From assembly GCF_004216475.1 (NCBI RefSeq), contig NZ_CP022303.1, positions 4,585,001 to 4,649,000 on the forward strand: a stretch of 64,000 nucleotides of DNA, given 5' to 3'. The position numbers and the translations under genes were made by a program. Under the pieces are notes generated by a model. The model did no database searches, was not told where the DNA came from, and was given only the letters and a program-made list of their open reading frames with translations. This DNA comes from Thalassococcus sp. S3 (GTDB taxonomy: Bacteria; Pseudomonadota; Alphaproteobacteria; Rhodobacterales; Rhodobacteraceae). This document shows positions 18,474 to 54,936 of the stretch, one piece after another. Each line of letters begins with the position of its first letter. The stretch's first letter is position 1.

Positions 18474-18480
18474 GCGTCTG

Positions 18481-19539: not shown

Positions 19540-19893
19540 CGTCTCCCGTTCCTTTGCGATGGCAGGGGTATCTGCATGGAGCATGTGCACGCCGCGTTTC
19601 CCGCCTGGCTGGCTTCCGACATGCGGTGCCTGCCCTTTTTCATCGCCCATTCACGCGCTGAAACCACCATGCGTATTGGCTATGGCGGCATCAGCCATCG
19701 TTTGTTTGGAGTTGGACTTTCGCCTGCCATACTGCCCCCTGAAGGCAGCGGCTCTGTTCTGGTTTTGGGCAGGCCCTTCTTACCTAACGATTTGTTCCGT
19801 TTAGATAAAATCCGAATACTTGTCTGATGCGCTCGCGCGTTGAGGACTTTCGGCCTGCGATCCAAACCCTCTATCAACCAAGCGGAGTAGCCC
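19540..19893. other. Divergent control region between peroxidase and ferredoxin operons
   Basis: 354 bases separate the left-reading peroxidase/kinase operon from the right-reading ferredoxin operon, so promoters of both must lie here. I could not identify a confident operator or sigma-factor consensus by eye, and no short gene with a good ribosome site. Confidence 0.5.
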
Positions 19894-23121: not shown

Positions 23122-23186
23122 CGCGCGTGTTTGGCGCCCACCGACATCACCCACCGCCGACCAATTGATACGATGAGGATTGAGAT

Positions 23187-24920: not shown

Positions 24921-24965
24921 TCCCAACAACGGCGCAAGGTTGACCCGCTGGATCGCATGACGGCG

Positions 24966-29037: not shown

Positions 29038-30507
29038 ATGGAGGGCGACGTTCAGAAACCAGGTCTCCATCTCGCCGTGCAAAGCAAGACCGGAGAGCGC
29101 CCCGCCGGGCTTGATCCCGATGGCCGCATCTCCGTTATCTCAGGCCTCAGCGTGGGACGCGGCGAAGACAACGACCTGGTGTTGCCCGATCCCCGACGCG
29201 TGATTTCCAAACATCACTGCGTGATTTCCCAAATCGAAACCGGCCTCGTCCTCGTCGACCACAGCCGCAATGGGACGTTCCTCAACCGCGAGGCGGAGCG
29301 GCTGCAACAGGACACCCCCGTCCCGCTGGCCGAGGGCGACGTCATAAGGATCGGGGACTTTTCGTTGACCGTGCTTCAAGACAACGAAGAGGAGCAGGAG
29401 GTCAGCGATAAGATCCCTGAACCGTCGGCCGAACAGACTTTTCTTGGCGCGGTTCCGATGAAGCAGCCAGAGCTCGGTTTTGCGCCCACTTCCGAAAAGT
29501 CGCTGGAAACGGAAGATGCCGCAGACCTTTTCGCGGATCACCAGCGTGGACTGTTTGCCAGGCCTGATCTGCCCGCCGTGGCCGATCATCTCGACAGTGG
29601 GCGTGGCGCATTCGTGCAGCCCGGAACCTCCTCCGGCCCGATCCCGGACGACTGGAACCTCATGGATGAGCTTGGCCAAGGACACGATGTTTCATCGGAT
29701 ATGGCCAATGGCGCGTTTTCAGAACCTCTTTCACACGAAGCGGCGGTTGATCCATCTGATCGCAGGGACGTCTGGGCCTGGCCCACCGAGGACGACGCTG
29801 GATTGGAGAATGAGGGGTTGCGAAACGGATCCAGCCGCAAGGCCGAAGCACGCCCGACAAAGGCGGGGGATTGGGACGCAAACGAAATACCGGTGCTCCC
29901 GTCTCAAACGCCATCGGGCGTGACTGATGCGGCGGCTGAAAAAGCGTTCTCGGCTTTCCTTTTGTCCGCCGGTCTCGACAAGGCGGACATTCCCCAAGGC
30001 CAACATGTTGAAATGATGGCTCTCGCCGGCGCGATGTTGCGTGAGACTGTCACCGTGCTGCACCGTTTGCTGCAGGCACAAAGCAGGCTCCAGAACGGGA
30101 TCGGCGGCACGGCTGGCTCGCAAAATACCAATCCCCTGATGCTTTTCGGGACACCTGAAGAGGCGTTGCATATCCTGCTCCGCCCGGATCTTCCGGGGTT
30201 CATGTCCGGCGAAGCGGCGGCACAGCAGGCTGGATCTCAGATCGGCACGTTTCAGGAAGACCTCTCAACGATCATGCAGGACGCCCTTCAAAAGGCGCTG
30301 CACGACCTCTCACCTGGCGCGATATCTCCCGCAACCAAGGGGCCCAACGTCTTTTCCAATGGCTATCGCCGTCTTTGGGACGCTTACGACCGGACCCACA
30401 CCAGGATCAGAGGCGAGTTGGAAGCGGAGCTTCAAAAGCGATTTGGCTCCGGCGCTGCCCTCAGACTAGCCAATCCCGGCAAAACGGATGACCGTTATGA
30501 TGGATGA
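29038..30507 (+). CDS. tagH: T6SS FHA-domain protein TagH/Fha
   Basis: 489 residues. The N-terminal FHA domain (about 25-110) shows the binding residues SVGRGEDNDLVLPD, ISKHHC and DHSRNGTFLN. A long acidic linker of low complexity follows, and the C-terminal 190 residues form the TagH-specific domain (SAFLLSAGLDKADIP, LRPDLPGFMSG, YRRLWDAYDRTHTRI). In Agrobacterium and Pseudomonas the FHA protein binds a threonine-phosphorylated partner made by PpkA and promotes T6SS activation. The 3' end overlaps tssL by 20 bases, so the genes are tightly coupled. Confidence 0.95.
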   Translation: MEGDVQKPGLHLAVQSKTGERPAGLDPDGRISVISGLSVGRGEDNDLVLPDPRRVISKHHCVISQIETGLVLVDHSRNGTFLNREAERLQQDTPVPLAEGDVIRIGDFSLTVLQDNEEEQEVSDKIPEPSAEQTFLGAVPMKQPELGFAPTSEKSLETEDAADLFADHQRGLFARPDLPAVADHLDSGRGAFVQPGTSSGPIPDDWNLMDELGQGHDVSSDMANGAFSEPLSHEAAVDPSDRRDVWAWPTEDDAGLENEGLRNGSSRKAEARPTKAGDWDANEIPVLPSQTPSGVTDAAAEKAFSAFLLSAGLDKADIPQGQHVEMMALAGAMLRETVTVLHRLLQAQSRLQNGIGGTAGSQNTNPLMLFGTPEEALHILLRPDLPGFMSGEAAAQQAGSQIGTFQEDLSTIMQDALQKALHDLSPGAISPATKGPNVFSNGYRRLWDAYDRTHTRIRGELEAELQKRFGSGAALRLANPGKTDDRYDG

Positions 30508-31816
30508 AGACGAAACCATATTGCTGCCGCGTGAACCGGATACGTCTTCCCCTGCGCACCCCGAGCCACTGCCCGCCCTTCACATGGCCAGCGCCCCGGC
30601 AGAGCCGGTTCAGGACGAGACCTGGCACGAGTTGAACAAAGGGCGCCAGTCGCCGCTGATCCTTGCCGCGGCGCCGGTCCTGACGATGGCGGCGGCCGTC
30701 AAAACCGGCGCGACGGGTGATGATATCGGCGCTTTGCATCGCCGCGCTTTTGCCGAGATCGACGCATTCGAAGTCCGCGCCGGTAAACTTGGTCTCGCGC
30801 CCCGGGCACTCAAGGCCAGCAAATACGCGCTTTGCGCCACGTTGGACGACGTGGTGATGAATACGCCGCTTGGAAGCCGTTCGATCTGGACCTCCCATTC
30901 GCTGGTCGGCTCCTTTTTCAGCGAGACATGGGGCGGTGACCGCTTCTTTGACCTGCTTGACCAGATGAAGCGGGATCCCGGTGTGAATATCGACCTGATC
31001 GAGCTGCTTTATTATTGCATCAGCCTTGGTTTCGAGGGCCGGTATCGGATTTCCGATCGCGGCCAAGGCGAATTGATGGTCCTGCGCGAGGATCTCTATC
31101 GCCTCATCCGGTCCATCCGGGGAGAACCCGAGCGCGACCTGTCGCCCGTCTGGCGCGGCGCCAAACCGGACCGGCGGTCCGGACTTGTGGGGCCTCCTCT
31201 TTGGGCGACCGCGGGCATCGCCTTATGCGGCCTGGTTGCCCTTTACCTCGCCTTGTCGGCCCTGCTCGACTTCCGAATGCGTGAGACGGGCATCCGCTTT
31301 GCCGAAATGCCGCCTACCGGCTTTGTGCGTCTCATCCGGGAATCGGCACCACAGGCCGAACCCGCGGTGGTGATGCTGCCGGTAGACCGATTGCGCCGCT
31401 TTCTCGAAGCCGAAATTCGTGAAGGCCTGGTGACGGTCATCGAAGATGATCGTTCAATCACCGTGACCATCCGGGGTGACGGGATGTTCGAATCAGGCGC
31501 GCCGGATCCGCTGGCCGAATATGGCCCGCTGATGGACCGGATCGGCATCGCGCTCAACGGAGAGACCGGTGCGGTTGCCGTGATCGGACATACCGATTCC
31601 ATCCCCATGCGTTCGGCACGGTTCCCCTCCAATCTGGAATTGTCCCAGGCCCGCGCGGATGCGGTTGCGACGCTCATCCGCGAACCGATGGAACGCCCCG
31701 ACCGCGTGAGCACAAGCGGGCGCGGCGCGGACGAACCCATTGCGCCGAACACTTCCGAGGCCGGGCGGCGGCTCAACCGGCGCACTGAAATCGTTCTGCA
31801 AAAAGAACCGCACTAG
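30488..31816 (+). CDS. tssL: T6SS inner-membrane protein TssL with OmpA/MotB-like C-terminus
   Basis: 442 residues. A DotU/IcmH domain covers about 40-215 (IDAFEVRAGKLGLAP, LLYYCISLGFEGRYR), one membrane helix is at about 237-262, and an OmpA-like peptidoglycan-binding domain (IGHTDSIPM, NLELSQARADAV, GRRLNRRTEIVL) ends the protein. This extended form anchors the membrane complex to the cell wall. The N-terminal tail reads DEDETILLPREP: a single threonine (T10) after acidic residues with Leu at +3, which fits a kinase site read by an FHA domain. In Agrobacterium TssL is phosphorylated by PpkA at an N-terminal threonine and bound by Fha. The start overlaps tagH by 20 bases. Confidence 0.96.
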   Translation: MTVMMDEDETILLPREPDTSSPAHPEPLPALHMASAPAEPVQDETWHELNKGRQSPLILAAAPVLTMAAAVKTGATGDDIGALHRRAFAEIDAFEVRAGKLGLAPRALKASKYALCATLDDVVMNTPLGSRSIWTSHSLVGSFFSETWGGDRFFDLLDQMKRDPGVNIDLIELLYYCISLGFEGRYRISDRGQGELMVLREDLYRLIRSIRGEPERDLSPVWRGAKPDRRSGLVGPPLWATAGIALCGLVALYLALSALLDFRMRETGIRFAEMPPTGFVRLIRESAPQAEPAVVMLPVDRLRRFLEAEIREGLVTVIEDDRSITVTIRGDGMFESGAPDPLAEYGPLMDRIGIALNGETGAVAVIGHTDSIPMRSARFPSNLELSQARADAVATLIREPMERPDRVSTSGRGADEPIAPNTSEAGRRLNRRTEIVLQKEPH

Positions 31817-31825: not shown

Positions 31826-34800
31826 ATGCTGTTCATCCGCAAGCTATTGACCGACAAACGGGTCTGGTGCGTCGTCGCGATCTTGGTGATCATCGCGTTG
31901 ATTGGGACGATGATTTTTGGCGATGCGCTTGCCGACACGCCCCTTGACCGGTTTCAGTCCTACATTCTTGGCGGCCTGCTTTTGCCAATCGGTCTGCTCG
32001 CATTCGCGCTGTTTCGCGGAAGAATCGAACAGAATGTTCAAAACCGGGTTTCGCAGATCCTCAACGAAGGCGAGGGCTCAACCCCGAATGCGCGCATCGC
32101 CCAGGCATCGGCCGCTGCGGAAACCGACGAGATGCGCATACTGGACGCCAATCTGAAATCGGCGTTGTCCTCCCTCAAAAAACGCCGGTTCGGACGTGGG
32201 CATCGCCGCTGGCTTTATCAATTGCCCTGGTATGCGGTGATCGGACCGCCCGGCGCGGGAAAGACCACCGCGATTGCGCAATCCGGTCTGACCTTTCCGC
32301 TGGCTGACACCCATGGTCGCGGCCCGCTGTCGGATATCGGCGGCACCCGCAACTGCGAATGGTGGCTCACGGACGAGGCCGTTCTGATCGACACGGCCGG
32401 GCGTTACACCAGCCAGGAAGACCCTGCAGGACCCGAGCGTGGGGTTTGGCTCGGCTTTTTGAGATTGCTCAAAAAGCGGCGGCGCCGCGAGCCGATCAAC
32501 GGCATTATCGTCGCCATCAGCCTCGACGTGCTGATCGGGCCGGCGGCCTCCCGACGCGACTTTGCGCGACGCATCCGTCTGCGGGTGCGTGATATCTACG
32601 AGGAGTTGGGCCAACGTGTGCCGGTCTACACTCTGCTGACCAAGGCGGACCTGATGGCCGGGTTCGTCGAGTTCTTCGATGATCTGGGACAGGAGGGGCG
32701 CGAGGCGGTTTGGGGCATCACCTTCCCGACCGAAAAGGACGACGCCCCGCCGTCACAAAAGGCCACCGATCCGCTTGAAAGCTTTGAGCGGGAGTTTGAT
32801 CGGATCGTCGCGCGCCTTGACGCCCGCCTGCCCGACCGCATGCAGAAAGAGGCGGATGTCCCGCGCAGGCGGCTCGTTTTTGGATTTCCGCAACAGGTGG
32901 CAAGCCTGCGACCGGTGATCAGCGCGTTCCTGACGGACGCATTCGCATCGAACTCTTTCGAAGACCCGATCTTGCTGCGTGGTCTTTATATGGTGAGTGG
33001 CACCCAGCATGGTCAGACCATCGACCGCATCACGACAGAGGCAGCCGTCCCCATTGAGGCAGAAGGCGGACGGACCGCCGGTTCTCCTCAGCCCCGCAGT
33101 TATTTTCTGACCCGTTTGATGCGGGACGTCATCTTTACCGAGGCCAGTCTCGTCCGCAACGAACCTGGTTCAGCCCGCCGATTGGTCCGCCGGCAACTGG
33201 CGGGGCATGCCGGCATTGGCCTTGCCGCGTTGGCCCTGAGCGTGGTGATGCTGATGACCTACCGGCATTCCGTGGCACTTGCAGGACGCTTCGAAGCGGA
33301 GGCACAGGTCTTTTCGGATGAGGCGTTGCCCCTGCAACTCGAAGAAGTGGGCAGGTCGGATCTGCGTGATGTCGTTCCACTTCTGGACCGTCTCAGAGCT
33401 CTGCAGGACGATCTTGACGCCGACCTGAACGTCGCGACCACCGAGACCGCGGCCAGTTCAATGGATTTCGGCCTCGTTCGCGCGGGTGAGCTGGACACGA
33501 TGGCCGGCACGGCCTATCGCGACACGCTTTCCTCGGTATTGCTGCCACGGCTTTTGTTGCGCATCGAAGAGACGATGGACAGCCATGCGGATGATCCGGA
33601 ATTCCTTTATCACGCGCTAAAAGCCTATCTGATGCTCGGCGGGCGCGGCCCGCTTGAGCCGGACTTTCTGGCACATTGGATCGCACTGGACACCCGCGAG
33701 CGGTATGCCGACCCCGCCGACGCGGATCTAAGGGACCGCCTGGGTGGTCATGTCAGGGCACTACTGGCCACGTCCCTTACGGGCATCGGGCTGGATGACG
33801 ATCGGATCGCATCCGCCCGCGCCGCGCTTGGCGGGCGATCCGCCGCCAAGCGGGTTCATGACGCCATCGTCAAAAGCGCGGCGGCCACGGCTGCACCGAT
33901 CTGGCGTCTGGCCGATCATGCCGGACCAGATGCGGAGCGTATCTTTCTGGACCGGCGCGGGCCCGACACGATCACAAGTGTGCCAGGGATCTATACCCAT
34001 ACCGGGTTCTTCGATGTCTTCCTCAAAAGCCTGCCCGAGGTCACCGCACGTGAGGCTGCCGACGCTTGGGTTCTTGACCCGGATGCACCCACCGAAGGCG
34101 CGCCGGATCGAACGCGCGCCGCACAGCTAGCCGCAGACGCGACCGAACTTTACCTGCGTGAATTCGCGTTGATCTGGGACGAGACATTGGCTGCGATCGC
34201 CGTCCAACCCGTCAACTCGCTGGATGCCTCTTTGCGTCTGATGAACGTGTTGGCGGCCCCGACCTCCCCCATTCGCCTTGTGCTGATCTCCATCGTCGGC
34301 ACTACCGCGCTGGACCGTCCGCCCCAAGCCGCAACCGACGGCGCAGAAGAGACCGCCGCTACTCCGACAAAGCCACAGGCAAACCTCGATACGTTGTTTG
34401 CAAATAGCGGCGACAGAGATGGCCCGCAGAACCGCGCGGCCAAGTTTGCCGCTACGCATTTCCGCGGCCTCCGCGCCTTGGTTGAGGTTCCGCCAAACAG
34501 CCAGCAAGGGGCCACACCGCCCATCGATCAGATCATCACCGATCTGGGCGCGCTCTATCGCAACCTTCGTGATATGCAGGCCACTGACGCGGCGGGCCCC
34601 TTGGACAATGCGCAAGAGGCCGCACTGGTCACCAGCGAGATCGAAACGCGTGCTGCGTCGATTCCGGAACCCATTCAAAGCTGGATTACGGATGTGAGCG
34701 CGCAGTCGGTCAGCCAGTCCAGATCCGACGCGCGAGTCCGGCTGAACAGGCGCTGGCGCAGCGGGCCCGCGGAATTGTGCCAGCGGGTGACCAAGGCGCG

Positions 34801-35437
34801 CTACCCGTTCGACGGCAGTGCCCGCGCCGAAGCAAGTCTTGAAGACTTCGCCATGTTGTTCGGACCTGATGGCGGGCTGGACCGCTTCTTTCGAACCAAT
34901 CTCGACAATATCGTAGATCGCAGCGAGGAGACCTGGCGCTGGCGCGCGCTCGACGGTGTGGATGGGACGCTAAATGATCGCTCTCTGGCAGCGATGCAGC
35001 AGGCTGCCGAAATCCGCCGAGCCATGTTTTCGGGTGCAGCCCAGCGCCCGTCGGTGACATTCCAGGTCGTCATCGCGGCACTTGAGACCTCGGGATCCGG
35101 GGTCCGGTTTACTGTGGACGGTCAGGATTTTTCCTATCGCTCCGGCACGTCAAAATCGGCGCGGCTGCACTGGCCCGGTCCCGGCGGGCTGGGTCAGGCC
35201 TCTATCAGTTTCCCTCGCCGGTTTTCATCCAAGGAAGCTGGGCTGTCCAGCAAGGGACCCTGGGCGCTCTTTCGTCTTCTGGATCGGAGCCAGCAGCGCC
35301 AGGCGACCGATGGCAGACTGGATCTGACCTTCGTGCTGGGCGAGCGCCGGATCAAATTGCTGTTTCAAAGCGATGCCGAACGCAATCCGCTCGACCGCAG
35401 ACTGCTTTCCTCCTTTCAATGCCCGGAGGCGTTTTGA
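31826..35437 (+). CDS. tssM: T6SS inner-membrane ATPase-like protein TssM (IcmF)
   Basis: 1203 residues, usual for TssM. Two membrane helices lie at the start (VVAILVIIALIGTMIFG; ILGGLLLPIGLLAFALF) and a third near residue 460 (IGLAALALSVVMLMTY). The cytoplasmic part between them carries an intact Walker A motif, GPPGAGKTT (140-148), and DTAGRY for Walker B. The long periplasmic C-terminal half ends with the IcmF C-terminal domain (FSYRSGTSKSARLHWPGPGG). The ATG at 31826 has AGGAG seven bases upstream; a nearer ATG at 31821 is out of frame. The stop overlaps the tagF start. Confidence 0.97.
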   Translation: MLFIRKLLTDKRVWCVVAILVIIALIGTMIFGDALADTPLDRFQSYILGGLLLPIGLLAFALFRGRIEQNVQNRVSQILNEGEGSTPNARIAQASAAAETDEMRILDANLKSALSSLKKRRFGRGHRRWLYQLPWYAVIGPPGAGKTTAIAQSGLTFPLADTHGRGPLSDIGGTRNCEWWLTDEAVLIDTAGRYTSQEDPAGPERGVWLGFLRLLKKRRRREPINGIIVAISLDVLIGPAASRRDFARRIRLRVRDIYEELGQRVPVYTLLTKADLMAGFVEFFDDLGQEGREAVWGITFPTEKDDAPPSQKATDPLESFEREFDRIVARLDARLPDRMQKEADVPRRRLVFGFPQQVASLRPVISAFLTDAFASNSFEDPILLRGLYMVSGTQHGQTIDRITTEAAVPIEAEGGRTAGSPQPRSYFLTRLMRDVIFTEASLVRNEPGSARRLVRRQLAGHAGIGLAALALSVVMLMTYRHSVALAGRFEAEAQVFSDEALPLQLEEVGRSDLRDVVPLLDRLRALQDDLDADLNVATTETAASSMDFGLVRAGELDTMAGTAYRDTLSSVLLPRLLLRIEETMDSHADDPEFLYHALKAYLMLGGRGPLEPDFLAHWIALDTRERYADPADADLRDRLGGHVRALLATSLTGIGLDDDRIASARAALGGRSAAKRVHDAIVKSAAATAAPIWRLADHAGPDAERIFLDRRGPDTITSVPGIYTHTGFFDVFLKSLPEVTAREAADAWVLDPDAPTEGAPDRTRAAQLAADATELYLREFALIWDETLAAIAVQPVNSLDASLRLMNVLAAPTSPIRLVLISIVGTTALDRPPQAATDGAEETAATPTKPQANLDTLFANSGDRDGPQNRAAKFAATHFRGLRALVEVPPNSQQGATPPIDQIITDLGALYRNLRDMQATDAAGPLDNAQEAALVTSEIETRAASIPEPIQSWITDVSAQSVSQSRSDARVRLNRRWRSGPAELCQRVTKARYPFDGSARAEASLEDFAMLFGPDGGLDRFFRTNLDNIVDRSEETWRWRALDGVDGTLNDRSLAAMQQAAEIRRAMFSGAAQRPSVTFQVVIAALETSGSGVRFTVDGQDFSYRSGTSKSARLHWPGPGGLGQASISFPRRFSSKEAGLSSKGPWALFRLLDRSQQRQATDGRLDLTFVLGERRIKLLFQSDAERNPLDRRLLSSFQCPEAF

Positions 35438-36213
35438 TGACTTTGACAAGCGGTTCCAGCCACTTTCATGCATTCGGCAAACTGCCCGCACGTGCCGATT
35501 TCGTCGATACCGGCCTCAGTGCAGCCACCCGCAGAGCGATGGACGTCTGGCTGCAGGACGGTATCGCGGAAAGCCAGCGGGAATACGGGACATCCTGGCG
35601 TCAAATCTACCTCGAAGCGCCGATCTGGCGGTTCATTCTGCCTTGGGGCATGTGCGGCCCGGTCACCATTCTCGGCGTGATCAGTCCCAGCCACGACAGC
35701 GTCGGGCGATGCTATCCGCTGCTGATGGCGACCGAAATCCCCTCCCCCGTCAATACGATCGGCCTGATTGCGGGATCAAACCGCTGGTTCGGCGCGGTGG
35801 AGGCGCTGGCCCTGGATGCGCGTGATCCGACATTCGATTCCAGCGAGCTTTATCGCCGCTTGTTGCCGCGCTGGCGCACCGGCGAGGTAAAGCCCATCCG
35901 GACCTTCCCCACTTCGATCAGCGGGCGCGAGGGTCTGGCCGTCGAGTTACCGATGTTGTCCGCCGGGCCCGCAATGGCCCATATGCTGTGTAGAGAGGCC
36001 CCCGCCGAACGTGGGCTTTGGTGGACTGCGGGATCGACAAGAGTCCCGCCCATGCTGGCAATCATTCCAAAGCTGACATCGCCCTTGGGCTTTACCGCAT
36101 TTCTCGATGGAAAGTGGACACGGCACGGATGGGATCATCGCCCGCTGATACCGGACGCTCCCACCCCGGAGACCGGCGCGCCGGCCGTGGCCGACTGGGA
36201 CCGCGAAGCCTGA
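35437..36213 (+). CDS. tagF: T6SS-associated protein TagF
   Basis: 258 residues beginning at the ATG that overlaps the tssM stop by one base (TGATG), with GGAGG-like GGAGGC upstream. The start SSHFHAFGKLPARADFVDTGL is the TagF (DUF2094) signature, followed by APIWRFILPWGMCG and GVISPSHDSVGRCYPL. TagF represses T6SS post-translationally in Pseudomonas and Agrobacterium, in the latter as a fusion with the phosphatase PppA. Here it is a stand-alone TagF with no PppA part. Confidence 0.93.
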   Translation: MTLTSGSSHFHAFGKLPARADFVDTGLSAATRRAMDVWLQDGIAESQREYGTSWRQIYLEAPIWRFILPWGMCGPVTILGVISPSHDSVGRCYPLLMATEIPSPVNTIGLIAGSNRWFGAVEALALDARDPTFDSSELYRRLLPRWRTGEVKPIRTFPTSISGREGLAVELPMLSAGPAMAHMLCREAPAERGLWWTAGSTRVPPMLAIIPKLTSPLGFTAFLDGKWTRHGWDHRPLIPDAPTPETGAPAVADWDREA

Positions 36214-36263
36214 CTAAATTATCCAACCTGCACTGAACCGACCTAAGACCGGAGATCTTGATC

Positions 36264-37808
36264 ATGCCGAAACACATTAAGTCTATCGCCAACAAAGCGC
36301 TTGCCGACATCCGCAAAAGCGAGAGCAGGCGCAAGAAGAAGCCCAACTGGGCTGCGGGATTTGCCACTGCGCGCGTGGAGGGCGGCAAGCCGTCGGCCGT
36401 TGTCCGCCCCAGCCTGACAAAGGCCAAGTCCGATATCCGGAAATACGGTATCGAGAAGTCGACCAGCTCCAAAATCGCAGAGCAGACCGAAGGCTGGATT
36501 TGGTTTGAAGGCGGCCAGATCTTCATCGATATGAAGCGCGGCAGTTTCAGTGCCGCCCAGAAGACAATTCAGGAATACTTCAAGCATTTCAAAATCGGCT
36601 GCCCGACAATCCGCAGGGGAGAAGCGCTCACCGAAGATCAGATCGCCGCAAATGAACAAGACGATGAGGAGCCGTCGGAAGAGAACGACGATGTCTCATC
36701 CTCGTCCACCGATAACGCAGCGGTTCCGCCTCCATCCGCGGACACCGAAGCGTCGCCACAGCCCGCGACAAGCGAAATCGGTGAACCGGAACCCGCCGCA
36801 ATGAGCGAGACGCCGGCCGAAGAGGTGGCATCCGACCCCGTCGAGACCGATCTGCCCGAAGAGGACCGTACCGCCGCCGAAAAGACCGCCACGACGGTAT
36901 CCGGTCTGCTCCAAAAACTTTTCAAACGTCTTGACGTGCAAACGGAAACGGCCGCCGATGACCTGCGCCGCAAGGCCGAAGGCTATCTTCTGGAGGCGCT
37001 CGGAGAAGAAGAGAAGCCAGAGCTTCGCAAAGCCTTGCTGGAAACCGCGCCTTGTCGGCTACAGGTCGCCATGGCCCGACAGGGCCTCTTGCCACAACTC
37101 GGCGCCACGGCATCCGAAGACAATCCACTCGACTATTTTGATCCCGACGCCCCTGTTGCTCAAGGGGAAGTGGCTGATCACTTCTTCGATCTTGCATCTC
37201 GTGCCGCCCGCAACTTGGACAAAAACATCCATATCTCTCGAACACGGATCGAAGATCGCATCGCCTCAACCTTTGGCGCTGCAACAGATGCAAAGGGTAA
37301 GCTGGACAGTCTTCACAGATTGTCGATGTCGATCTTGCCTGTCCTGCAGCACAGGGCCAATCTGGAACTGCATTTCGGCATACCGAACGCATCGGAAGGC
37401 AGCCACGGCAATGCTCCGACGCGGAACAAACTGGCGCTTGTAAACACCCTTATGACATCGATCGGAGAAATCGAAAAATGCCGCATTGCGCATGAACGCG
37501 CGCTGCAAAAGGAGAGCGGCGAGACCCTCAGCAGCACCGAACACGCCTATTTCGACAGCCTGAGCCAAGGCTTGTCCACGCAGACCAACGCGCTTCTGGA
37601 GCAAATGAGCAACGATCCCAGCGGATCGGAAGACGTGGCTGGGGAGGCCAGCAGCACCTTGAAAGAACATATCGACAACCTGCGCAACTTCGTTAAGCCC
37701 AGGTTCGCAAAGTTGGACAAACGAGATAAAGCCCTGGGCAAAACCAACATCGTGGGCCGATATCTGAAATCACTTTCGAAGATCGAAGCACAACTCGCTG
37801 CATCCTGA
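36264..37808 (+). CDS. Unknown T6SS-locus protein (514 residues, acidic linker)
   Basis: No family was recognised. The ATG at 36264 is chosen over a TTG six bases upstream because GGAG lies nine bases before it. Residues 1-110 are basic with a compact segment GWIWFEGGQIFIDMKRGSF; residues about 125-205 are a low-complexity acidic/Pro/Ser/Glu linker; the last 300 residues are mostly predicted helix (TVSGLLQKLFKRLDV, ETAPCRLQVAMARQGLLPQL) and end with basic LKSLSKIEAQLAAS. No signal peptide or membrane helix. It is the last gene of the right-reading T6SS arm, 50 bases after tagF, and faces vgrG. Position suggests a secreted effector or accessory subunit; the sequence does not prove either. Confidence 0.7.
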   Translation: MPKHIKSIANKALADIRKSESRRKKKPNWAAGFATARVEGGKPSAVVRPSLTKAKSDIRKYGIEKSTSSKIAEQTEGWIWFEGGQIFIDMKRGSFSAAQKTIQEYFKHFKIGCPTIRRGEALTEDQIAANEQDDEEPSEENDDVSSSSTDNAAVPPPSADTEASPQPATSEIGEPEPAAMSETPAEEVASDPVETDLPEEDRTAAEKTATTVSGLLQKLFKRLDVQTETAADDLRRKAEGYLLEALGEEEKPELRKALLETAPCRLQVAMARQGLLPQLGATASEDNPLDYFDPDAPVAQGEVADHFFDLASRAARNLDKNIHISRTRIEDRIASTFGAATDAKGKLDSLHRLSMSILPVLQHRANLELHFGIPNASEGSHGNAPTRNKLALVNTLMTSIGEIEKCRIAHERALQKESGETLSSTEHAYFDSLSQGLSTQTNALLEQMSNDPSGSEDVAGEASSTLKEHIDNLRNFVKPRFAKLDKRDKALGKTNIVGRYLKSLSKIEAQLAAS

Positions 37809-40028: not shown

Positions 40029-41624
40029 TCAAACAGGGTTGTCTCTGCCGGCATTCGGATCAGGAAGAAAGCGTCTCGCAATGATGGTCAGGCTGATGAT
40101 CCCGGCGATCAGGGTAACGATCTGAAATGGGGTCGGTATCTTGTGGCGCCTGATATCATCCTTCCGTTCATTGCGGTCGTAGTTGAGCTTGGCGATATCG
40201 CGGCAATGCTGCAAAATCTCGTTGGTGATTTCGGTGTCGGTCTTTTCGCCCTTAAAAAGCTGATGAATACTGGCGGCGGTCGTTTTCACGTATTGCTCCA
40301 GTTGCAGCATCAACTCCTTGTTTTCCGACAAGTGCTCTGTCTTGGACAGGACTTCGTTATATACTCCTTGCATCGCCTTTCCGGTTGCAATCATGTTCGC
40401 GCGGCGTTGGTCGGGTGAAACCCACTGATTGCGCGCATGATCCCATTCAACCCTCTGGGTGAAATCCCCGCCCTCTTCCCGGACGAAGCCACCGGTCATG
40501 GTTGCCATGTCCGGTTCGAATTCGACCAGAACCTGCCTTTGGTCCCGCACGATCATCGTTGCAAATTCACGCGCATCTTCGTCGCTGTCTTCATCATCAG
40601 AACGCACGGGTTCTTTGCCTTTGCCTTCAACCTGAGACCGCTTTTTTTCACGCTGCAGAACAACGATGTGCTCCGCCCCCGGATATCCTTCGGTCAAGAA
40701 TTGGTCGTAATTGCGTGCTTTTTTCCGGCTGATCAGAGCAGGCTGCAGCGCGATGTCGGTTTCGACTTGTTCTTTATACTTCGGGACAACATTGCCGTCC
40801 TTCCACCAGTTCGCGATGCTTTCGTTCAGATCCGGCTCCTCCGTTTTTTTAAGCCAAGGAAAGGTTCTCCTCGCGTCGCGCTGACTTTGGGCCATTCGCG
40901 CTTGTTGGTTCTTCGAACCACCAAGTTCCAGGTCCCGGCCGGCGTCTTGGGGAGCTTGAGGCGCAACCGCGCTCGAGGACGCCTCTGCGACCGAGGCGCT
41001 GGCTGCGCCGCCATGTCGCTGACGTAGCCCGCTCGACCCCGCAACCGCGGCTGCGGCGGGAGGTGCCGTCGGCCTTTCCGCAGGCGTTTCGGTCTGTTTC
41101 GCCGCCTCCGCAACGTCCGCGCCTTCCTCCGGACCGATTGCGATGATCGTCATCATCTCCGATAAGCGCAGAGCCGCAGCCTCGGGCGAAACATAGGGGC
41201 CTTCTGTCCCAGCAGCTGCGGTGGTTGGTTGCGCCTGGCTTCTGTCAAGCGCCTCACTGTATTCCAAGGCCTCCGCGACCATCGCACTCAACGCTTCAGC
41301 AGCAGATTGATCAGCGTCCTCCACGTCTGTCTCATCGGCAGGTAAAGGTATATCTTCGGGCCGGGTCTGAATAGCGACCGGACCCTCAGCGGTCTCGGAC
41401 GCACCTTTCCCAGGGACCTGTTCCACCGGAATAGCGGGCCCTTTACCCCTTTCTTCGGTCGAGGGACCCGCCGCGCCCTCACCCTGAGCAGAACCGGGGT
41501 CTGACTTTGCTGGCCAATCCTCTAGCTCAACAACATCCCCTCCGCCGGAGGTTTGCCCCAAGAGCTCGTCCAGGCTCTCACGTGATCTTCCCTTGTCTTT
41601 CTTTTCAAGTGTCGAAGCGCCCAT
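40029..41624 (-). CDS. Unknown T6SS-locus protein with C-terminal membrane anchor (531 residues)
   Basis: No family was recognised. The first 250 residues are low-complexity, rich in Ala, Glu, Pro and Gly. Residues about 255-345 contain a compact segment (FPWLKKTEEPDLNESIANWW, RKKARNYDQFLTEGYPGAEH), then another acidic patch (SDDEDSDEDAREF), a helical region likely to form a coiled coil (VYNEVLSKTEHLSENKELML), and a single hydrophobic helix at the extreme C-terminus (IVTLIAGIISLTIIARRFL) followed by a short polar tail. That layout resembles a tail-anchored membrane protein. The gene lies between clpV (2 bases away) and vgrG (stop near or overlapping its start), so it is co-expressed with both. 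It may be an effector, an effector carrier or a membrane-linked accessory protein. Confidence 0.72.
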   Translation of the reverse strand: MGASTLEKKDKGRSRESLDELLGQTSGGGDVVELEDWPAKSDPGSAQGEGAAGPSTEERGKGPAIPVEQVPGKGASETAEGPVAIQTRPEDIPLPADETDVEDADQSAAEALSAMVAEALEYSEALDRSQAQPTTAAAGTEGPYVSPEAAALRLSEMMTIIAIGPEEGADVAEAAKQTETPAERPTAPPAAAAVAGSSGLRQRHGGAASASVAEASSSAVAPQAPQDAGRDLELGGSKNQQARMAQSQRDARRTFPWLKKTEEPDLNESIANWWKDGNVVPKYKEQVETDIALQPALISRKKARNYDQFLTEGYPGAEHIVVLQREKKRSQVEGKGKEPVRSDDEDSDEDAREFATMIVRDQRQVLVEFEPDMATMTGGFVREEGGDFTQRVEWDHARNQWVSPDQRRANMIATGKAMQGVYNEVLSKTEHLSENKELMLQLEQYVKTTAASIHQLFKGEKTDTEITNEILQHCRDIAKLNYDRNERKDDIRRHKIPTPFQIVTLIAGIISLTIIARRFLPDPNAGRDNPV

Positions 41625-48277: not shown

Positions 48278-49789
48278 TCATTCGTTTCCCGCCGACGGCA
48301 GGCGTGAGACCAGGCGAAGCGACACGGTCAGTCCCTCCAGCTGGTAATGCGGTCTCAGAAAAAACCGGGCACTGTAGGCGCCGGGATTGTCTTCGATGTC
48401 TTCGACAACAACCCTGCCGGCCGAGAGCGGCTTTTCAGCCTTGCTGTCTTCGCTCGCCAATGTCGGAGACGGATGAACGTATTGCTGCAGCCAGTTATTC
48501 AGCCATTCCTCGACCTCGTGCCGCTCCTTGAACGAACCGATTTTGTCGCGGACCATGCATTTGAGGTAATGCGCGAACCGGCTTGACGCGAAGATGTAGG
48601 GCAGCCGCGCGCTCAGCTCCGCGTTCGCAGAGGCGTCCGGATCGTCGTATTTGACCGGTTTGTTAAGGGTCTGCGCGCCCAGGAAAACACCGTATTCCGT
48701 GTTCTTTCGGTGCAGCAGCGGCAAAAGCCCGGCTTTGGACAATTCCGCCTCGCGGCGATCGCTGATCGCGATCTCGGTGGGGCATTTGAAGTCCACTCCC
48801 CCATCGTCGCTGGGAAAGGTGTGCACCGGAAGATGTTCGACCAAACCACCGGATTCCACACCGCGAATACGGGACAGCCAGCCGTATTTCTTGAACGACC
48901 GCGTGATGTTGACGCCAAGCGCGTAGGCCGCGTTGCACCACAGATATCGGCTGCTGTCCCCGCCATCCACGTCCTCTTCAAAGTCGAAATCATCCACTGG
49001 ATTGGTCTGGGCGCCGTAAGGCATCCGCCCAAGGATGCGGGGCATTGTAAGCGCCAGATAGCGGGAATCCTCGCTTTCCCTGAGAGAGTTCCAAGCGGCG
49101 TGTTCCGGGGTCAGGAAGATCTTGGTCAGGTCGCGGGGATTGGCCAGCTCCTGCCAGTTGTCCATCCGCATAAGCCAGGGGGCCGCCGCTGACAGGAAAG
49201 GCGCGTGCGACGCGGCAGCGACGCGGCTGAGATTGGACAGCAGTTCAACATCGACGGGTGTGTGATCGAAATAGTAATCCCCGATCAGACAGCCAAAGGG
49301 CTCGCCGCCAAGCTGGCCGTACTCCTCTTCATAGATACGTTTGAAAAGGGGGCTCTGATCCCACGCGATACCTTTGTATTTGCGCAAGGACCGCGACAGC
49401 TCCTTCTTGGTCACCGGAAGAACCCGGATCTTCATCGTCTCGTCGCTTTCGGTGTTGTAGACGAGGTGATGCAGGCCGCGCCAAGCCGATTCCATCTGCT
49501 GAAATTCGTCGTGATGCATGATCTCGTTGATCTGACCGGTCAGCTTTGCATCAATCGCGGCAATCAGCTTTTCGATGGTCGGAATGACCTCCTTGCCGAT
49601 GAGTTCCTGCTGGTCCAGGGCGGCGGACGCGAGGGTACGAACCGCGCGCTCCACCCCCTCCCGCGCCTGGTCCGACCGTGAGCGGAATTCCCGTTGCAGC
49701 AGGGCGTCGAACCCGTCTGCTTCAACAAAGTCGACCGTCGGTGCCGATCTGACCTCGGCGACTGCAGCTTCTGCTTGCTCGTCCATCAC
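48278..49789 (-). CDS. tssC: T6SS sheath large subunit TssC (VipB)
   Basis: 503 residues. TssC signatures: FQQMESAWRGLHHLVYNTES near residue 95, KIRVLPVTKKEL, EYGQLGGEPFGCLIGDYYF, and the C-terminal LSAGRVVVEDIEDNPG and YQLEGLTVSLRLVSRLP. With TssB it forms the contractile sheath. The start overlaps the tssB stop by four bases (ATGA). Confidence 0.97.
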   Translation of the reverse strand: MMDEQAEAAVAEVRSAPTVDFVEADGFDALLQREFRSRSDQAREGVERAVRTLASAALDQQELIGKEVIPTIEKLIAAIDAKLTGQINEIMHHDEFQQMESAWRGLHHLVYNTESDETMKIRVLPVTKKELSRSLRKYKGIAWDQSPLFKRIYEEEYGQLGGEPFGCLIGDYYFDHTPVDVELLSNLSRVAAASHAPFLSAAAPWLMRMDNWQELANPRDLTKIFLTPEHAAWNSLRESEDSRYLALTMPRILGRMPYGAQTNPVDDFDFEEDVDGGDSSRYLWCNAAYALGVNITRSFKKYGWLSRIRGVESGGLVEHLPVHTFPSDDGGVDFKCPTEIAISDRREAELSKAGLLPLLHRKNTEYGVFLGAQTLNKPVKYDDPDASANAELSARLPYIFASSRFAHYLKCMVRDKIGSFKERHEVEEWLNNWLQQYVHPSPTLASEDSKAEKPLSAGRVVVEDIEDNPGAYSARFFLRPHYQLEGLTVSLRLVSRLPSAGNE

Positions 49790-50340
49790 TCGGTCTCCGT
49801 GTCGGGCGCTGTTTTGGCTGCGTCTGTTGACCCTTCTTCTTCCTCTTCACCCCCGGGCGTGGCAGCGAGAGTGCGCAGCAGCTCCGGATCAGACAGAAGC
49901 TGGCCGACAAGCTCCTCAGCGCCCGCTTTTCCATCCATGTACGTCAGCAGGTTGGACAACTGACTTCTCGCGTCGAGAAGCTTGGCAAGGCTGTCCACGC
50001 TTCTTGCGACGGATGCCGGCGAAAAGTCCTCCATGCTTTCAAAGGTCAGATCCACGAACATGGCTTCCTCGCCCGTCAGAGTGTTGGGGACCTGCATCGC
50101 CACCCTCGGTTTGAGGGCCCGCATCCGTTCATCAAAGTTGTCGACATCGACCTCGAACATCTGCCGCTGGTCCAGCTCGGCCAATGGCATCTGTGATCGG
50201 CCCACCAGATCTGACATGACCCCAACAACAAATGGCAGTTGGATCTTTTTTTCCGAGCCATATGTCTCGACGTCATATTCAATTTGCACTCGGGGCGCGC
50301 GATTTCGCGCGATAAATTTCTGACTGCTTTCTTTCACCAT
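49786..50340 (-). CDS. tssB: T6SS sheath small subunit TssB (VipA)
   Basis: 184 residues. It carries the TssB motifs RAPRVQIEYDVETYGSEKK near the start, LPFVVGVMSDLVGRS, and FVDLTFESMEDFSPASVAR in the middle. An acidic tail follows. It pairs with TssC in the sheath and is bound by ClpV after contraction. It lies 37 bases downstream of tssA and overlaps tssC by four bases. Confidence 0.97.
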   Translation of the reverse strand: MVKESSQKFIARNRAPRVQIEYDVETYGSEKKIQLPFVVGVMSDLVGRSQMPLAELDQRQMFEVDVDNFDERMRALKPRVAMQVPNTLTGEEAMFVDLTFESMEDFSPASVARSVDSLAKLLDARSQLSNLLTYMDGKAGAEELVGQLLSDPELLRTLAATPGGEEEEEGSTDAAKTAPDTETE

Positions 50341-50377: not shown

Positions 50378-51403
50378 TTAAGCACTTTCCTGTTCTTCCC
50401 CTGGAGAGTTCTGAATACCGGCCAAATGGCGGAATTGAGGTGCCCCATCAGGTGCAAGCTCCTCCATGAGAGCCATGAAATCCTTGGAAACGAGATTTCG
50501 GGCGCGATTCAGCAAAAGCGGGATCGGACTGGCAGGCTCATTCAGACGGTACCAGCGACAGATACGATCAATCGTTTCGACGATGTCATCGCGGTTCTGG
50601 ATCTCGCGGCGACCGCGTCCCGCGGATCCGCCTGTCTGCCCCTCCTCCGCGCCCCCGTCGCTTGCGGGTTCCGATGTCTCAGGCACCTCCGAGCAATAAG
50701 GCGTAACCAAAGCACGCATTTGGGACAGGACGGTGTATATGGGCGCAAAATCGGGCGCCTCATGCGAGGAGACATGGTTGAGGACAGCCGTTTCCAGACG
50801 GTTCAGCGCGTCTTCGCATTCGGCAAGATGGCCTGCTGTCAGGTCGTTGTTTTCCGTTGGCCCCTCGGCAAAGGCGCCTTCGATGCGCTGCAGATCCTCA
50901 TGCGCGTCCTCGTCATGACGTGCCGTGTTCCAGTCCCGTATCGAGAAACGTCCAAACCTTTGTGAATCAACAAGGATATGATCGCGTAGCGCGCCTAGAA
51001 GCCCGTCGGGATCAACCACTTCAGACAAGGCATTGATACGGATCGTTTCATCGGTCTCATCATCCTCCGGACAAGGGTGGATGTCTGTCCAGAAGGTATC
51101 GACAAGGCTCGCCATCCTTGAAAGCGCAGCTGCAAAGCCCTCAAGGCCCTCCAGTTGCAGCGCTGCCCGGCTGAGCAACAGCTCAAGCCTGATGTCGTGG
51201 GATCGCGCCGCCAGTTTTTCGGCAAGGGACAGAACGGAAGCCCAATCCGGTGGTTCGCCAGGCACCGATGCGCCGTCGGTCTGCTGGCCTGGTTTGCCGC
51301 GCGCCATGATCTCAAGATCGAGAAATTCCAGATCGTAGTCCAGCGGCTCACCGCAGGGCGGATCATCCTCGATCGGCGCAACAGAGATCTTGTCCAGGGC
51401 CAT
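50378..51403 (-). CDS. tssA: T6SS protein TssA (ImpA N-domain)
   Basis: 341 residues. The ImpA N-terminal domain is seen in PIEDDPPCGEPLDYDLEFLDLE, WASVLSLAEKLAARSHDIRLE and FWTDIHPCPED, which are TssA hallmarks. The C-terminal third (RDDIVETIDRICRWYRLNEPASPIPLLLNRA in part) matches the short TssA class that caps the sheath or primes baseplate assembly. It is the first gene of the left-reading structural arm. Confidence 0.95.
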   Translation of the reverse strand: MALDKISVAPIEDDPPCGEPLDYDLEFLDLEIMARGKPGQQTDGASVPGEPPDWASVLSLAEKLAARSHDIRLELLLSRAALQLEGLEGFAAALSRMASLVDTFWTDIHPCPEDDETDETIRINALSEVVDPDGLLGALRDHILVDSQRFGRFSIRDWNTARHDEDAHEDLQRIEGAFAEGPTENNDLTAGHLAECEDALNRLETAVLNHVSSHEAPDFAPIYTVLSQMRALVTPYCSEVPETSEPASDGGAEEGQTGGSAGRGRREIQNRDDIVETIDRICRWYRLNEPASPIPLLLNRARNLVSKDFMALMEELAPDGAPQFRHLAGIQNSPGEEQESA

Positions 51404-51700: not shown

Positions 51701-52990
51701 TCAGCGCATGCATTGATGTCGATGAGACAAGAAACGGGCGCGCGCACCGGCGTCCTCTATCTGATCGGCAAGCTCGACCCACACCTCATCGATGGAGAGG
51801 CCCTTTTCCAGCGCCCGGCGTAACAACGTGCCCGCAATGGGCCCCACATACTGCGCAAGCGCGGCCCGCATATCGGCCAGAATCTCGGTATCGACTTCAG
51901 CGTCTGTCGCTCTGGCGGGCTGAACCGACGCGAGGTAGGGCGAAACGTCCGTAAGAAACGCCTCGTTCGCGCGCGGATCGTCAATGGCATCTGCCAACAT
52001 CTTGCACAAGTCCTCGATGCTGCGAGCCTTGTCGGAGGCTTTGCGCACCAGCACACCCGCGATGGGTCCGACATATCTGGTAAGGCGGTCTTCAACACCG
52101 GCTAGAACATCGGCGTCAAAGGGCATCGACGACGGAACCGGAACGGTCAGGGACATCCTGCCTGGCACATGCGGCCTGCATGCGACCTGCAATGCCTGGC
52201 TCATCTCGCTCGCCGAAGCAAAACGCCGCTCTCTGTCGGTATCCAGCGCGCGGCGCAAGACGTCGCGCAAAGGATCGGGGACGTCATCGACATCAAGCGA
52301 CGGATGTTCGTTGTGTGCCACACGCCGCATGATCTCGGTGGCGCTGCCCGAACCGAAAAGACGCCGACCGGTCAGCATCTGGTAGAATATGACACCCGCG
52401 GAGAAGAGATCCGCCCGCGCATCGACGGGATCACCACGCGATTGTTCGGGTGACATGTAGGACGGCGTGCCGGCCAGAACCGGCATACCCGCCTGATCCG
52501 ACTGGGCAAGGCTTGCGATGCCGAAGTCGGTCACCTTCACCAGATCCTCATCGTTGATCAGGATGTTGGCTGGCTTTACGTCGCGATGCACGATGCCGAG
52601 CTTGTGCGCGGCATCCAACCCGTCAAGAATTTGCGTCATGAGCGGAATGGCACGGCTGGGCGGCAAACGCTCTTTGCAAAGCATCACATCCTTGAGTGTC
52701 GCGCCCTCGACATGTTCCATCACGAAATATGGCCGGGCGTCCTGCATCGCGAAATCGAACAATGTCACGATGTTGGGGTGCGCGCAGCGCCCGGCGGCCT
52801 GGGCCTCGATGCGGATCTGTATTGACCTGTCGGGCCCCTTTTCAGATGCCAGCAGATCCGGGTGAATCAGCTTGATCGCGACCTTGCGATGAATATCGGG
52901 ATCGAATGCGGCATAGACGGTGCCCATGGATCCGCTGCCCAAAAGGCCCGTGACCTTGTAGCGACCAATATGCTCGGGGTGGCCGTCCAA
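51701..52990 (-). CDS. ppkA: T6SS Ser/Thr protein kinase PpkA, cytosolic form with tandem C-terminal repeats
   Basis: 429 residues. The kinase domain (10-270) is complete: glycine loop GSGSMGTVY, ATP lysine K40 in VAIKLI, HRDVKPAN (135-142), DFG (155-157), and GTPSYMSPEQ. The start is TTG at 52990 with AGGAG six bases upstream. The C-terminal 135 residues hold two copies of one unit (about 296-346 and 371-421), each with YVGPIAG, then L-V/L-R-K/R-A and a later A-R-x-F-L-type end. No membrane helix is visible, unlike many PpkA proteins. It probably phosphorylates TssL for recognition by TagH. It is the last gene of an operon with a membrane haem sensor, 15 bases away. Confidence 0.94.
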   Translation of the reverse strand: MDGHPEHIGRYKVTGLLGSGSMGTVYAAFDPDIHRKVAIKLIHPDLLASEKGPDRSIQIRIEAQAAGRCAHPNIVTLFDFAMQDARPYFVMEHVEGATLKDVMLCKERLPPSRAIPLMTQILDGLDAAHKLGIVHRDVKPANILINDEDLVKVTDFGIASLAQSDQAGMPVLAGTPSYMSPEQSRGDPVDARADLFSAGVIFYQMLTGRRLFGSGSATEIMRRVAHNEHPSLDVDDVPDPLRDVLRRALDTDRERRFASASEMSQALQVACRPHVPGRMSLTVPVPSSMPFDADVLAGVEDRLTRYVGPIAGVLVRKASDKARSIEDLCKMLADAIDDPRANEAFLTDVSPYLASVQPARATDAEVDTEILADMRAALAQYVGPIAGTLLRRALEKGLSIDEVWVELADQIEDAGARARFLSHRHQCMR

Positions 52991-53005
52991 GTTTGCTCCT
53001 CGCGT

Positions 53006-53893
53006 TTAGACATCCGGCTCCAGCAATTTCATCGCGTTGACGAAACTGCGGCGCATTCGCGTGAAGGACTGTGCCAATGAACCGATTTCATCGTTGCTTC
53101 TGATCTCGACGGTTTCACGATCGAGATTGCCCAGACTGACATCATCCGCCATCTCCGAGATCTGCCGCAGAGGCGAAAGCACCAGGCGGTGCAGCAACAG
53201 GTTCAGGATCAGCGCCAGCACTCCGAAAATAACGGTCAGACCGATTGCAACATCGCTCATCCGTTGACCGACACGGTCCAGTGCCACCTGCATCGGAACC
53301 GAAACAATTTGTGCCGCGACGATTTCATCCATCTGCCAGCCAAATCCATTGTCCCGGCCATATACCGCCACATAGCCCGCTGGCGCAGCTTCGGGGGTGG
53401 AGTGACAAGCCAGACAGCCTTGGTTTTCGATCCGGATGGGACGGGCGACAGACAGAATGCGTTGCCCCGCCTCCTCACGCTCGCGCACGAGTTCCGTGAG
53501 ATCGGGGTCATTCCGGAATTCCGTGATGATGTTGGCCTGCCAGGGATCGGACCGGTTTGCGGGGTTGGTCGGGTTGATCGCCGGAAACTCCACCGAGTAA
53601 TTCGGAAAGCGCTCCTGAAGGTTCCGGAATGTCGTATGCGCGGACCAGAACGGGACGGATTGTGGAAGAAACGTATCCTCCATCTGCATGGCCAAGAGCG
53701 GTGTGATCTCTCTTGCGGTGTAGTCACGGATCACGTCGGACTGTTCCGACATGATCGCCACCTCCTGCATGATCTGCTGACGCGCGTCCTGGTAGAGCAG
53801 CAGATAGGACAATCCGGTTGAGACGACCAAGGCGACCACGAAGGTCCCCAGCATCATCAAATTGAATTTGGCGCTTAGTCCCATGGCTCTCAC
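53006..53893 (-). CDS. Membrane c-haem sensor (DUF3365/Tll0287-like) with HAMP domain and no output domain
   Basis: 295 residues. Membrane helix at about 12-34, a periplasmic domain of about 180 residues with one covalent haem motif CLACH (160-164), a second helix at about 214-236, then a HAMP domain (VLSPLRQISEMADDVSLGNLD) and about 20 more residues. This is the input half of a redox or gas sensor of the DUF3365 type; the output half (methyl-accepting, kinase or cyclase) is missing. The likely start is GTG 53893, overlapping the upstream stop (GTGA), or ATG 53884. The ppkA gene follows 15 bases downstream, so the kinase may act as the separate output part (inference). Confidence 0.85.
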   Translation of the reverse strand: MRAMGLSAKFNLMMLGTFVVALVVSTGLSYLLLYQDARQQIMQEVAIMSEQSDVIRDYTAREITPLLAMQMEDTFLPQSVPFWSAHTTFRNLQERFPNYSVEFPAINPTNPANRSDPWQANIITEFRNDPDLTELVREREEAGQRILSVARPIRIENQGCLACHSTPEAAPAGYVAVYGRDNGFGWQMDEIVAAQIVSVPMQVALDRVGQRMSDVAIGLTVIFGVLALILNLLLHRLVLSPLRQISEMADDVSLGNLDRETVEIRSNDEIGSLAQSFTRMRRSFVNAMKLLEPDV

Positions 53894-54936
53894 TCGCTGC
53901 GTTGAAGAAGGCGCCGGATCTCGCTCGTCGTCAGCAAGCCTGTCGGCGCAGCGCCGGCTTCTATTTGAAATGCGGTAATTGCATCGCGCGTTTGCGGGCC
54001 AAATACACCGTCGATCTGGCCGTCGTAATACTGCAAGCGTTGCAGTTCGAGTTGAATGAAACGCCGATCCGCTTTGGTCAGCGTGGTGTCCTGCTCGTCC
54101 ACTTCTGGCGGTCTTTGCGGCGATGCAGGCACAGGTGGCTCGGACGTCTCCGGACCGCTACCGCCGATCAGCGGATGATCTATGCCGGGGGTCTTGAATT
54201 CGCTGTAAGATAAGGACGCGGTCTGAACGGTCGCGGAAAGCTCACCCAATAGACCGGCAACCGACAGATCCGCATCGGCGGCCTCGATCACGCTTGCAGC
54301 AGCATCCCCCAATACCCCCGGCGCTGCCTCGCCGGCGGGGATTGCGATGGCGGATCCGACTGCGGGTTCGAGATCCGGCATATCCTCGAACGGCGAAGGG
54401 CCTGTCGGATCTTCATCTGGCCTGTGCGCGATATCAAACAAAGCTGGCCCGATCCGCATTGCATCCGTGAGCGCGCGCAGGGGAATGCCCTCGGCAAGGA
54501 TATCGGCATCCCGCACAAGCCGGACAGAGCTGGGCAGAAGAAAGGTCTGACCCGAGTAAGTGGCTGAATATCCACAGAAATAGAGAAGCGAGGCGGATGC
54601 GGTACGCTTTTTTGCCAGAGCGCGGAATGATATAAGCGCGGCTGAAAACTCGCCCGAGGTCGTGTCATTCGCCACGATCACCTCAAAGCCCACATGCTCC
54701 AGCGCTCCGGCCAGCGCATGCGCCGACGCGCCGCATTCAGGGTATCCCGGAAGCGCCGAATACCCAGTCTCCGCCACGACCAAAGCGACCGGAGCTTCCG
54801 CAGCTTGAGATTGTTGAGCCGGAACAGCCTCGGAGGTGCCCAGAGACCCGAGCGTGAAGGCGAAAAGCCAAGGCGCTGCGGCGATGATCCAGGGCGCACC
54901 GGAGGTCTTTGGGCATAGAGGCAGCAAGACAGTCAC
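53890..54936 (-). CDS. Caspase-like protein lacking its catalytic pair, with C-terminal peptidoglycan-binding domain
   Basis: 348 residues. A hydrophobic N-terminal segment (WIIAAAPWLFAFTLG) acts as signal or anchor. Residues about 48-190 follow the caspase-like (peptidase C14) fold: ALVVAETGYSALPG, a beta strand SLLYFCGYSATY where active enzymes have a G-H-G motif, and ALFDIAH where they have D-A-C. So both His and Cys are replaced (Tyr123; Ala at the Cys site). A Pro-rich linker follows, and the end (RRFIQLELQRLQYYDGQIDGVFGPQTRDAI in part) is a PG_binding_1 domain. It is probably periplasmic, binding cell wall. It opens the operon with the haem sensor and PpkA, suggesting a role in sensing envelope damage for T6SS control (inference). 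Confidence 0.75.
   Translation of the reverse strand: MTVLLPLCPKTSGAPWIIAAAPWLFAFTLGSLGTSEAVPAQQSQAAEAPVALVVAETGYSALPGYPECGASAHALAGALEHVGFEVIVANDTTSGEFSAALISFRALAKKRTASASLLYFCGYSATYSGQTFLLPSSVRLVRDADILAEGIPLRALTDAMRIGPALFDIAHRPDEDPTGPSPFEDMPDLEPAVGSAIAIPAGEAAPGVLGDAAASVIEAADADLSVAGLLGELSATVQTASLSYSEFKTPGIDHPLIGGSGPETSEPPVPASPQRPPEVDEQDTTLTKADRRFIQLELQRLQYYDGQIDGVFGPQTRDAITAFQIEAGAAPTGLLTTSEIRRLLQRSE

Follow-up and report, generated by a model that had tools for sequence, protein, structure and literature searches.

The accessible text of the review PMC10482370 names Fha as the target of PpkA, a kinase of the type VI secretion system (T6SS), with TssL taking this place in Agrobacterium and Vibrio alginolyticus, and refers to the activator of the Agrobacterium PpkA as an unknown protein. 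For Agrobacterium, the accessible part of PMC3953482 gives Thr14 of TssL as the phosphorylation site and Fha as the protein binding it. On the side of haem sensing, the preprint PMC12889525 (February 2026) renames the Tll0287/DUF3365 domain sCache_heme. In its accessible sections, stand-alone Tll0287-type proteins with Cys/His ligation and no HAMP domain are redox-like, and a P. azotoformans protein with two transmembrane (TM) helices, a HAMP domain and no axial Cys binds nitric oxide (NO) tightly and does not form a stable O2 complex. The DNA analysed here, a 64,000-nucleotide stretch of Thalassococcus sp. S3 (contig NZ_CP022303.1, positions 4,585,001 to 4,649,000; "the window"), carries T6SS genes and, next to them, three genes in which a haem sensor of this kind directly precedes a Ser/Thr kinase:

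53890..54936, minus strand: caspase-like and peptidoglycan (PG)-binding protein, 348 amino acids (aa), first gene of the module, probably secreted (Pfam; signal peptide by eye only)
53006..53893, minus strand: sensor, 295 aa, with TM1, a periplasmic c-haem Cache domain (Tll0287/DUF3365) containing CLACH, TM2 and HAMP, output domain absent
51701..52990, minus strand: soluble Hanks-type Ser/Thr kinase, 429 aa, with two C-terminal YVGPIA repeats (Pfam and motifs)

The sensor and the kinase are a co-inherited split sensor-kinase module, which is the strongest result of this analysis. The best explanation of the locus as a whole, to which we give a probability of roughly 0.55, is a split receptor kinase that controls the T6SS.

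Comparison with described systems

With the PpkA-Fha-PppA pathway the window shares a Hanks-type kinase, an FHA protein, TagF, TssL and a periplasmic input. In that pathway, according to the accessible part of PMC10482370, PpkA is membrane-associated and is fed by TagQRST (P. aeruginosa) or RtkS (S. marcescens), whereas the window kinase is soluble and its input would be the c-haem Cache-HAMP protein. The A. tumefaciens PpkA-TssL-Fha system resembles the window in having an N-terminal TssL threonine that could be read by Fha, but the accessible part of PMC3953482 mentions no haem sensor, and the window has one. The P. azotoformans HAMP-only protein is built like the window sensor, with two TM helices, a c-haem Cache domain, HAMP, no output domain and no axial Cys; no partner is named for it and the words 'serine' and 'type VI' are absent from the accessible text of PMC12889525, while the window sensor has an adjoining kinase. 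Receptor kinases of the PknB/Stk1 type have a similar kinase domain (PknB is the closest match in PDB) and carry the sensor in their own chain, in contrast to the window, where sensor and kinase are two proteins, with HAMP as the relay. No open-access paper linking DUF3365 or Tll0287 with type VI secretion was found.

Organization and conservation of the module

The three open reading frames (ORFs), at 54936-53890, 53893-53006 and 52990-51701, overlap or nearly touch, as the first-pass annotation had described. The caspase-like gene and the sensor gene overlap by four bases, and a gap of 15 bases separates the sensor gene from the kinase gene, whose TTG start is preceded by GAGGAG, a good ribosome-binding site. 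The gap between the kinase gene and tssA is 297 bases. A promoter scan found nothing.

The sensor protein was searched in overlapping whole-genome samples at an E value of 1e-20. Matches were obtained in 7 of 385 genomes of the class sample, 18 of 76 in the order of genome G102, 8 of 39 in the family of G391 and 7 of 17 in the order of G184. The phylum sample gave 16 of 398, mostly distant proteins with long frames of their own, and eight plasmid records matched as well. None of 36 same-family relatives gave a full-length sensor match, and a scan of genome contigs gave two loci only. With a close copy defined by 200 bits or more, 48 distinct close copies with readable flanks were available (L139 and L188 are the same and were counted once). 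The kinase gene lies directly downstream of the sensor gene in 46 of these, the exceptions being L097 and L118, a cyanobacterial plasmid; among the distant sensor rows it was found in 2 of 17 only. The idea of an operon peculiar to this genome can be rejected, since the sensor-kinase pair is conserved among relatives.

For the reverse test the window kinase was searched in 60 chosen genomes, of which 37 carry the sensor and 23 have TssB and no sensor. Of the kinase matches of at least 210 bits, 37 of 39 adjoin a sensor, a number that includes G498, whose contig begins within the sensor gene; the two away from a sensor are a second kinase of G535, 3.7 kb off, and one copy in G492. On plasmids, all four strong kinase matches are in sensor-bearing records. 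Sensor and kinase distances are correlated over 43 copies (r 0.93, with species history still included), and over 26 copies those of the caspase-like gene co-vary with both (r 0.95 with the sensor and 0.97 with the kinase). The earlier proposal that the sensing and kinase parts are separate proteins is thus borne out by these counts, which also show that the two belong together, and it is very likely that they act together. An upstream caspase-like or PG-binding gene was found by a distance rule for 25 of the 48 close copies, on the opposite strand in L003 and L107; in L082 it is present and was missed by the rule. The upstream gene is FecR-like in Caballeronia zhejiangensis, and Pfam gives no match for it in two further betaproteobacterial loci.

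Properties of the module proteins

The sensor matches the Tll0287-like family PF11845 with 112.1 bits (cut-off 24.1) and HAMP with 48 bits, and it is the single PF11845 match in its genome. Its Cache fold is like that of Tll0287. Two hydrophobic stretches are located at about residues 5-35 and 211-243, and the only two cysteines (160 and 163) both lie within CLACH, so that an axial Cys is absent. The motif CXXCH is present in 42 of 43 sensor rows, and the window sensor is predicted to carry covalently attached haem. At the HAMP end, R279, M280, R281, R282, S283, N286, A287 and L291 are invariant across 35 rows, and nothing follows HAMP. The annotated membrane protein with c-haem, HAMP and a missing output domain is therefore confirmed. 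As to its signal, given earlier as periplasmic redox or gas, the gas part appears the better guess and the redox part the weaker one: because the identically built P. azotoformans protein binds NO and the window sensor has no third Cys, NO is favoured, and we see about even chances that it is the ligand.

The kinase scores 179 bits for Pkinase, with an intact P-loop (GSGSMG, 18), VAIK (37), HRD (135) and DFG (155); the YVGPIA repeats begin at residues 306 and 381. For its relatives PF26309 is a precomputed assignment. As expected of PpkA, the gene shares its T6SS cluster with an FHA gene; a membrane segment of its own, another mark of PpkA, is missing, as no hydrophobic stretch is found in the protein. 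The view that it is the usual T6SS kinase was rejected: none of the 23 TssB-positive, sensor-negative genomes reaches 210 bits, the best being G051 with 170 bits. That match, from another alphaproteobacterial T6SS, is a 684-aa kinase frame adjoining TssM and has no hydrophobic segment either; a soluble T6SS kinase is therefore not special in itself. From these comparisons the kinase appears to belong to a module-specific family, whose identity as PpkA is not established and which would at most work like PpkA. Of the cytosolic PpkA of the first-pass annotation, the lack of a membrane helix stands and the name PpkA does not, nor does the idea that this lack is distinctive.

The product of the first gene matches Peptidase_C14 weakly (24.5 bits, cut-off 21.4) and PG_binding_1 with 46.2 bits; Peptidase_C14 reaches 37.9 bits in one relative. 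The caspase-like fold rests on Pfam only, the structure model being poor (mean pLDDT 45.7), and the protein databases hold five homologues besides the protein itself. Read by eye over 24 aligned rows, the catalytic His survives in one (L003) and the Cys in none, and the window protein has neither. An active caspase is rejected on account of the absent His-Cys dyad; judged from its residues, the protein is a pseudo-enzyme. A cell-wall-binding, caspase-like protein had been annotated, and this description agrees with the two Pfam matches.

Linkage to the type VI secretion system

The T6SS genes of the window that bear on the module are the following:

50378..51403, minus strand: TssA (ImpA_N), first T6SS gene downstream of the kinase (Pfam)
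49786..50340, minus strand: TssB (Pfam)
48278..49789, minus strand: TssC (Pfam)
29038..30507, plus strand: TagH/Fha, FHA-domain protein with GR (40-41) and SKHH (57-60), candidate phosphothreonine reader (NCBIfam TIGR03354)
30488..31816, plus strand: TssL, N-terminal DEDETILLP, Thr10 a candidate kinase target (NCBIfam TIGR03349/TIGR03350)
31826..35437, plus strand: TssM (NCBIfam TIGR03348)
35419..36213, plus strand: TagF (NCBIfam TIGR03373)

T6SS genes occur in the fetched flank of 11 of the 48 close copies, from Alpha- and Betaproteobacteria: the window, G391 (C13), G102, G530 (VgrG only), G531, G763, Skermanella rosea, three Caballeronia and Paraburkholderia aromaticivorans. Several of these are close kin, which lowers the number of independent cases. 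The distant sensor of G370 is also T6SS-linked; in Rhodovulum P5 the module is present and no T6SS lies within 15 kb. On the sensor tree, where 12 of 52 rows carry the T6SS label, the label needs at least three changes; shuffled labels needed 10.9 on average, and 0 of 500 shufflings were as low. In Caballeronia and Paraburkholderia the sensor-kinase pair abuts tagF directly or adjoins tssB. Two Caballeronia plasmids (L120 and L121) carry a compact set at the T6SS edge, in the order FecR-like gene, DUF3365 sensor, kinase, PP2C phosphatase and tagF. The scanned ORFs of the window, which are part of its total, include no PP2C phosphatase; two Caballeronia loci have one after the kinase.

TssB is present in 27 of 36 genomes with a close copy. 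In the class sample it was found in 5 of 7 sensor-positive genomes vs 65 of 378 others (p 0.003, with the own genome and two distant sensors included). The order of G102 gave 16 of 18 sensor-positive vs 8 of 58 sensor-negative genomes (p 8e-9, and 2.5e-6 given genome size). A corrected rpoB tree covered 43 of the 76 genomes of this order, the 33 without usable rpoB being left out; of 4000 simulations on it, 0 reached the observed association when both traits were simulated and 7 when the T6SS alone was, and 5 and 13 without the contaminated G464. A haem protein found mostly without the kinase or a T6SS would have spoken against the first-pass annotation. The sensor nearly always has the kinase, and TssB accompanies it in most genomes, but T6SS genes flank fewer than a quarter of the close copies. 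Control of the T6SS is likely in the linked loci, yet the T6SS is not the only context of the module. Of the earlier interpretation, the split pair and a T6SS link that recurs in distant lineages and in one order hold; the PpkA identity is not supported, the caspase-like domain is degenerate, and redox is the weaker guess beside NO.

The window TssL starts with MTVMMDEDETILLP. The motif T-[IVA]-x-x-P is found near the N-terminus of all eight visible module-linked TssL proteins. The own genome has two TssB genes and therefore a second T6SS, 1.66 Mb away, in which TssL reads DDETPRIVLP. In this second system (L112-L113, C1:2961001-3001000) neither TagH nor the module kinase was detected by similarity to those of the window. 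Because Thr14 of the A. tumefaciens TssL is a PpkA site in the accessible part of PMC3953482, Thr10 is suggested as a plausible target of the window kinase.

Proposed mechanism and alternative explanations

The sensor and kinase probably form a two-protein switch that gives a gas such as NO control of the T6SS. The periplasmic c-haem Cache domain would bind a small ligand, most likely NO, and binding would shift TM2 and HAMP. The HAMP end would then act in trans on the product of the following gene, the soluble Ser/Thr kinase, while the PG-binding pseudo-caspase may anchor or tune the sensor on the wall side. The kinase output would set T6SS assembly, the simplest route being phosphorylation of TssL near Thr10, after which TagH could bind the phosphorylated TssL as in the PpkA/TssL/Fha system of Agrobacterium. 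That the T6SS is the target of the module in this locus is reasonably likely; the particular target and the sign of the effect are presumed.

Several observations weigh against control of the T6SS by a split receptor kinase. No T6SS gene is found in the fetched flank of 37 of the 48 close copies (many are short contigs of metagenome-assembled genomes, some flanks are full with 10 kb per side), and TssB is absent from 9 of the 36 genomes with a close copy, including the near-complete G454, G456 and G761. Two smaller groups gave no significant co-occurrence (7/7 vs 7/10, p 0.23, and 3/8 vs 8/31, p 0.66). After six near-copies were dropped from the rpoB tree, 120 and 158 of 4000 simulations reached the observed association, and the Pagel test gave p 0.06 on an earlier faulty tree with two rows reversed. 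The TssL motif contrast comes from one module-free T6SS, and FHA-type T6SS in general may share the motif. The low share of T6SS-flanked copies, the genomes without TssB, the two groups out of three without co-occurrence and the presence on large plasmids all suit a general-purpose sensor-kinase module with its main target elsewhere, placed beside the T6SS through shared mobile or accessory regions. We consider this rather unlikely, as the T6SS is the sole recurrent neighbourhood found (around the non-T6SS copies only generic families recur, the widest being an ABC-transporter ATPase in 5 loci), its linkage is seen in distant branches with strong co-occurrence in one order, and the pair sits immediately at tagF or tssB in Caballeronia and Paraburkholderia.

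It is unlikely, too, that the kinase is gated by the periplasmic redox state, with the haem domain serving as a redox or electron-transfer sensor. In the accessible part of PMC12889525 stand-alone Tll0287-type proteins do look redox-like, and the outer T6SS flank of the window has a di-haem peroxidase and iron-sulphur proteins. The redox type is, however, Cys/His-ligated and HAMP-free there, whereas the sensor of the window combines a HAMP domain with the lack of an axial Cys and in this resembles the P. azotoformans protein that binds NO. The redox genes form a separate cassette; Rhizobium etli 8C-3 and Agrobacterium fabrum have a similar block on plasmids, with no T6SS beside it. One T6SS-linked sensor (L043, in G370), the exception to CXXCH, reads CATCY and has lost the axial haem histidine, with an adjoining kinase frame of 908 aa; this counts against the split receptor kinase proposed above. 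A last alternative, in which sensor and kinase share an operon without contact and the HAMP dimer addresses another partner (a histidine kinase or the pseudo-caspase), is very unlikely. It would fit the co-variation of the caspase-like gene with both partners and the second G492 copy (L192, G492:C41, 5827-8870), where the kinase comes directly after a caspase-like/PG-binding gene, the sensor being absent, a further point against the split receptor kinase. The near-constant pairing with one kinase family and the strongly conserved HAMP-end residues argue for contact, as does P0217, one among 120 listed kinase relatives, which has TM2-HAMP and a kinase in a single chain, although this one sequence begins inside TM2.

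The activators of T6SS kinases outside P. aeruginosa and Serratia are largely open, and for these the module is a candidate that consists of two defined proteins and has a ligand open to test, NO being the best guess. For the HAMP sensors of the sCache_heme family that lack an output domain it points to a likely partner, and if the split receptor kinase is real, a HAMP domain would here signal in trans to a kinase of the Hanks type. More tentatively, the module may represent a new class of split receptor kinases, in which HAMP relays the signal of a periplasmic haem to a soluble Ser/Thr kinase in trans; several proteobacterial lineages would have coupled such a switch to the T6SS, which would be armed or disarmed by NO that neighbours, hosts or denitrification produce.

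Other genes of the window

A redox cassette at 15690-26953 encodes a response regulator, a DAHL histidine kinase, the di-haem cytochrome c peroxidase, a 1075-aa membrane protein with Fer4_5 and an FHA domain, an FAD/2Fe-2S reductase and two LysR regulators. The redox genes (15.7-25 kb) were rejected as part of the module, being a cassette of their own elsewhere. Two proteins without a Pfam match, of 531 aa (40029-41624) and 516 aa (36258-37808), adjoin VgrG and TagF and could be T6SS cargo or accessory proteins.

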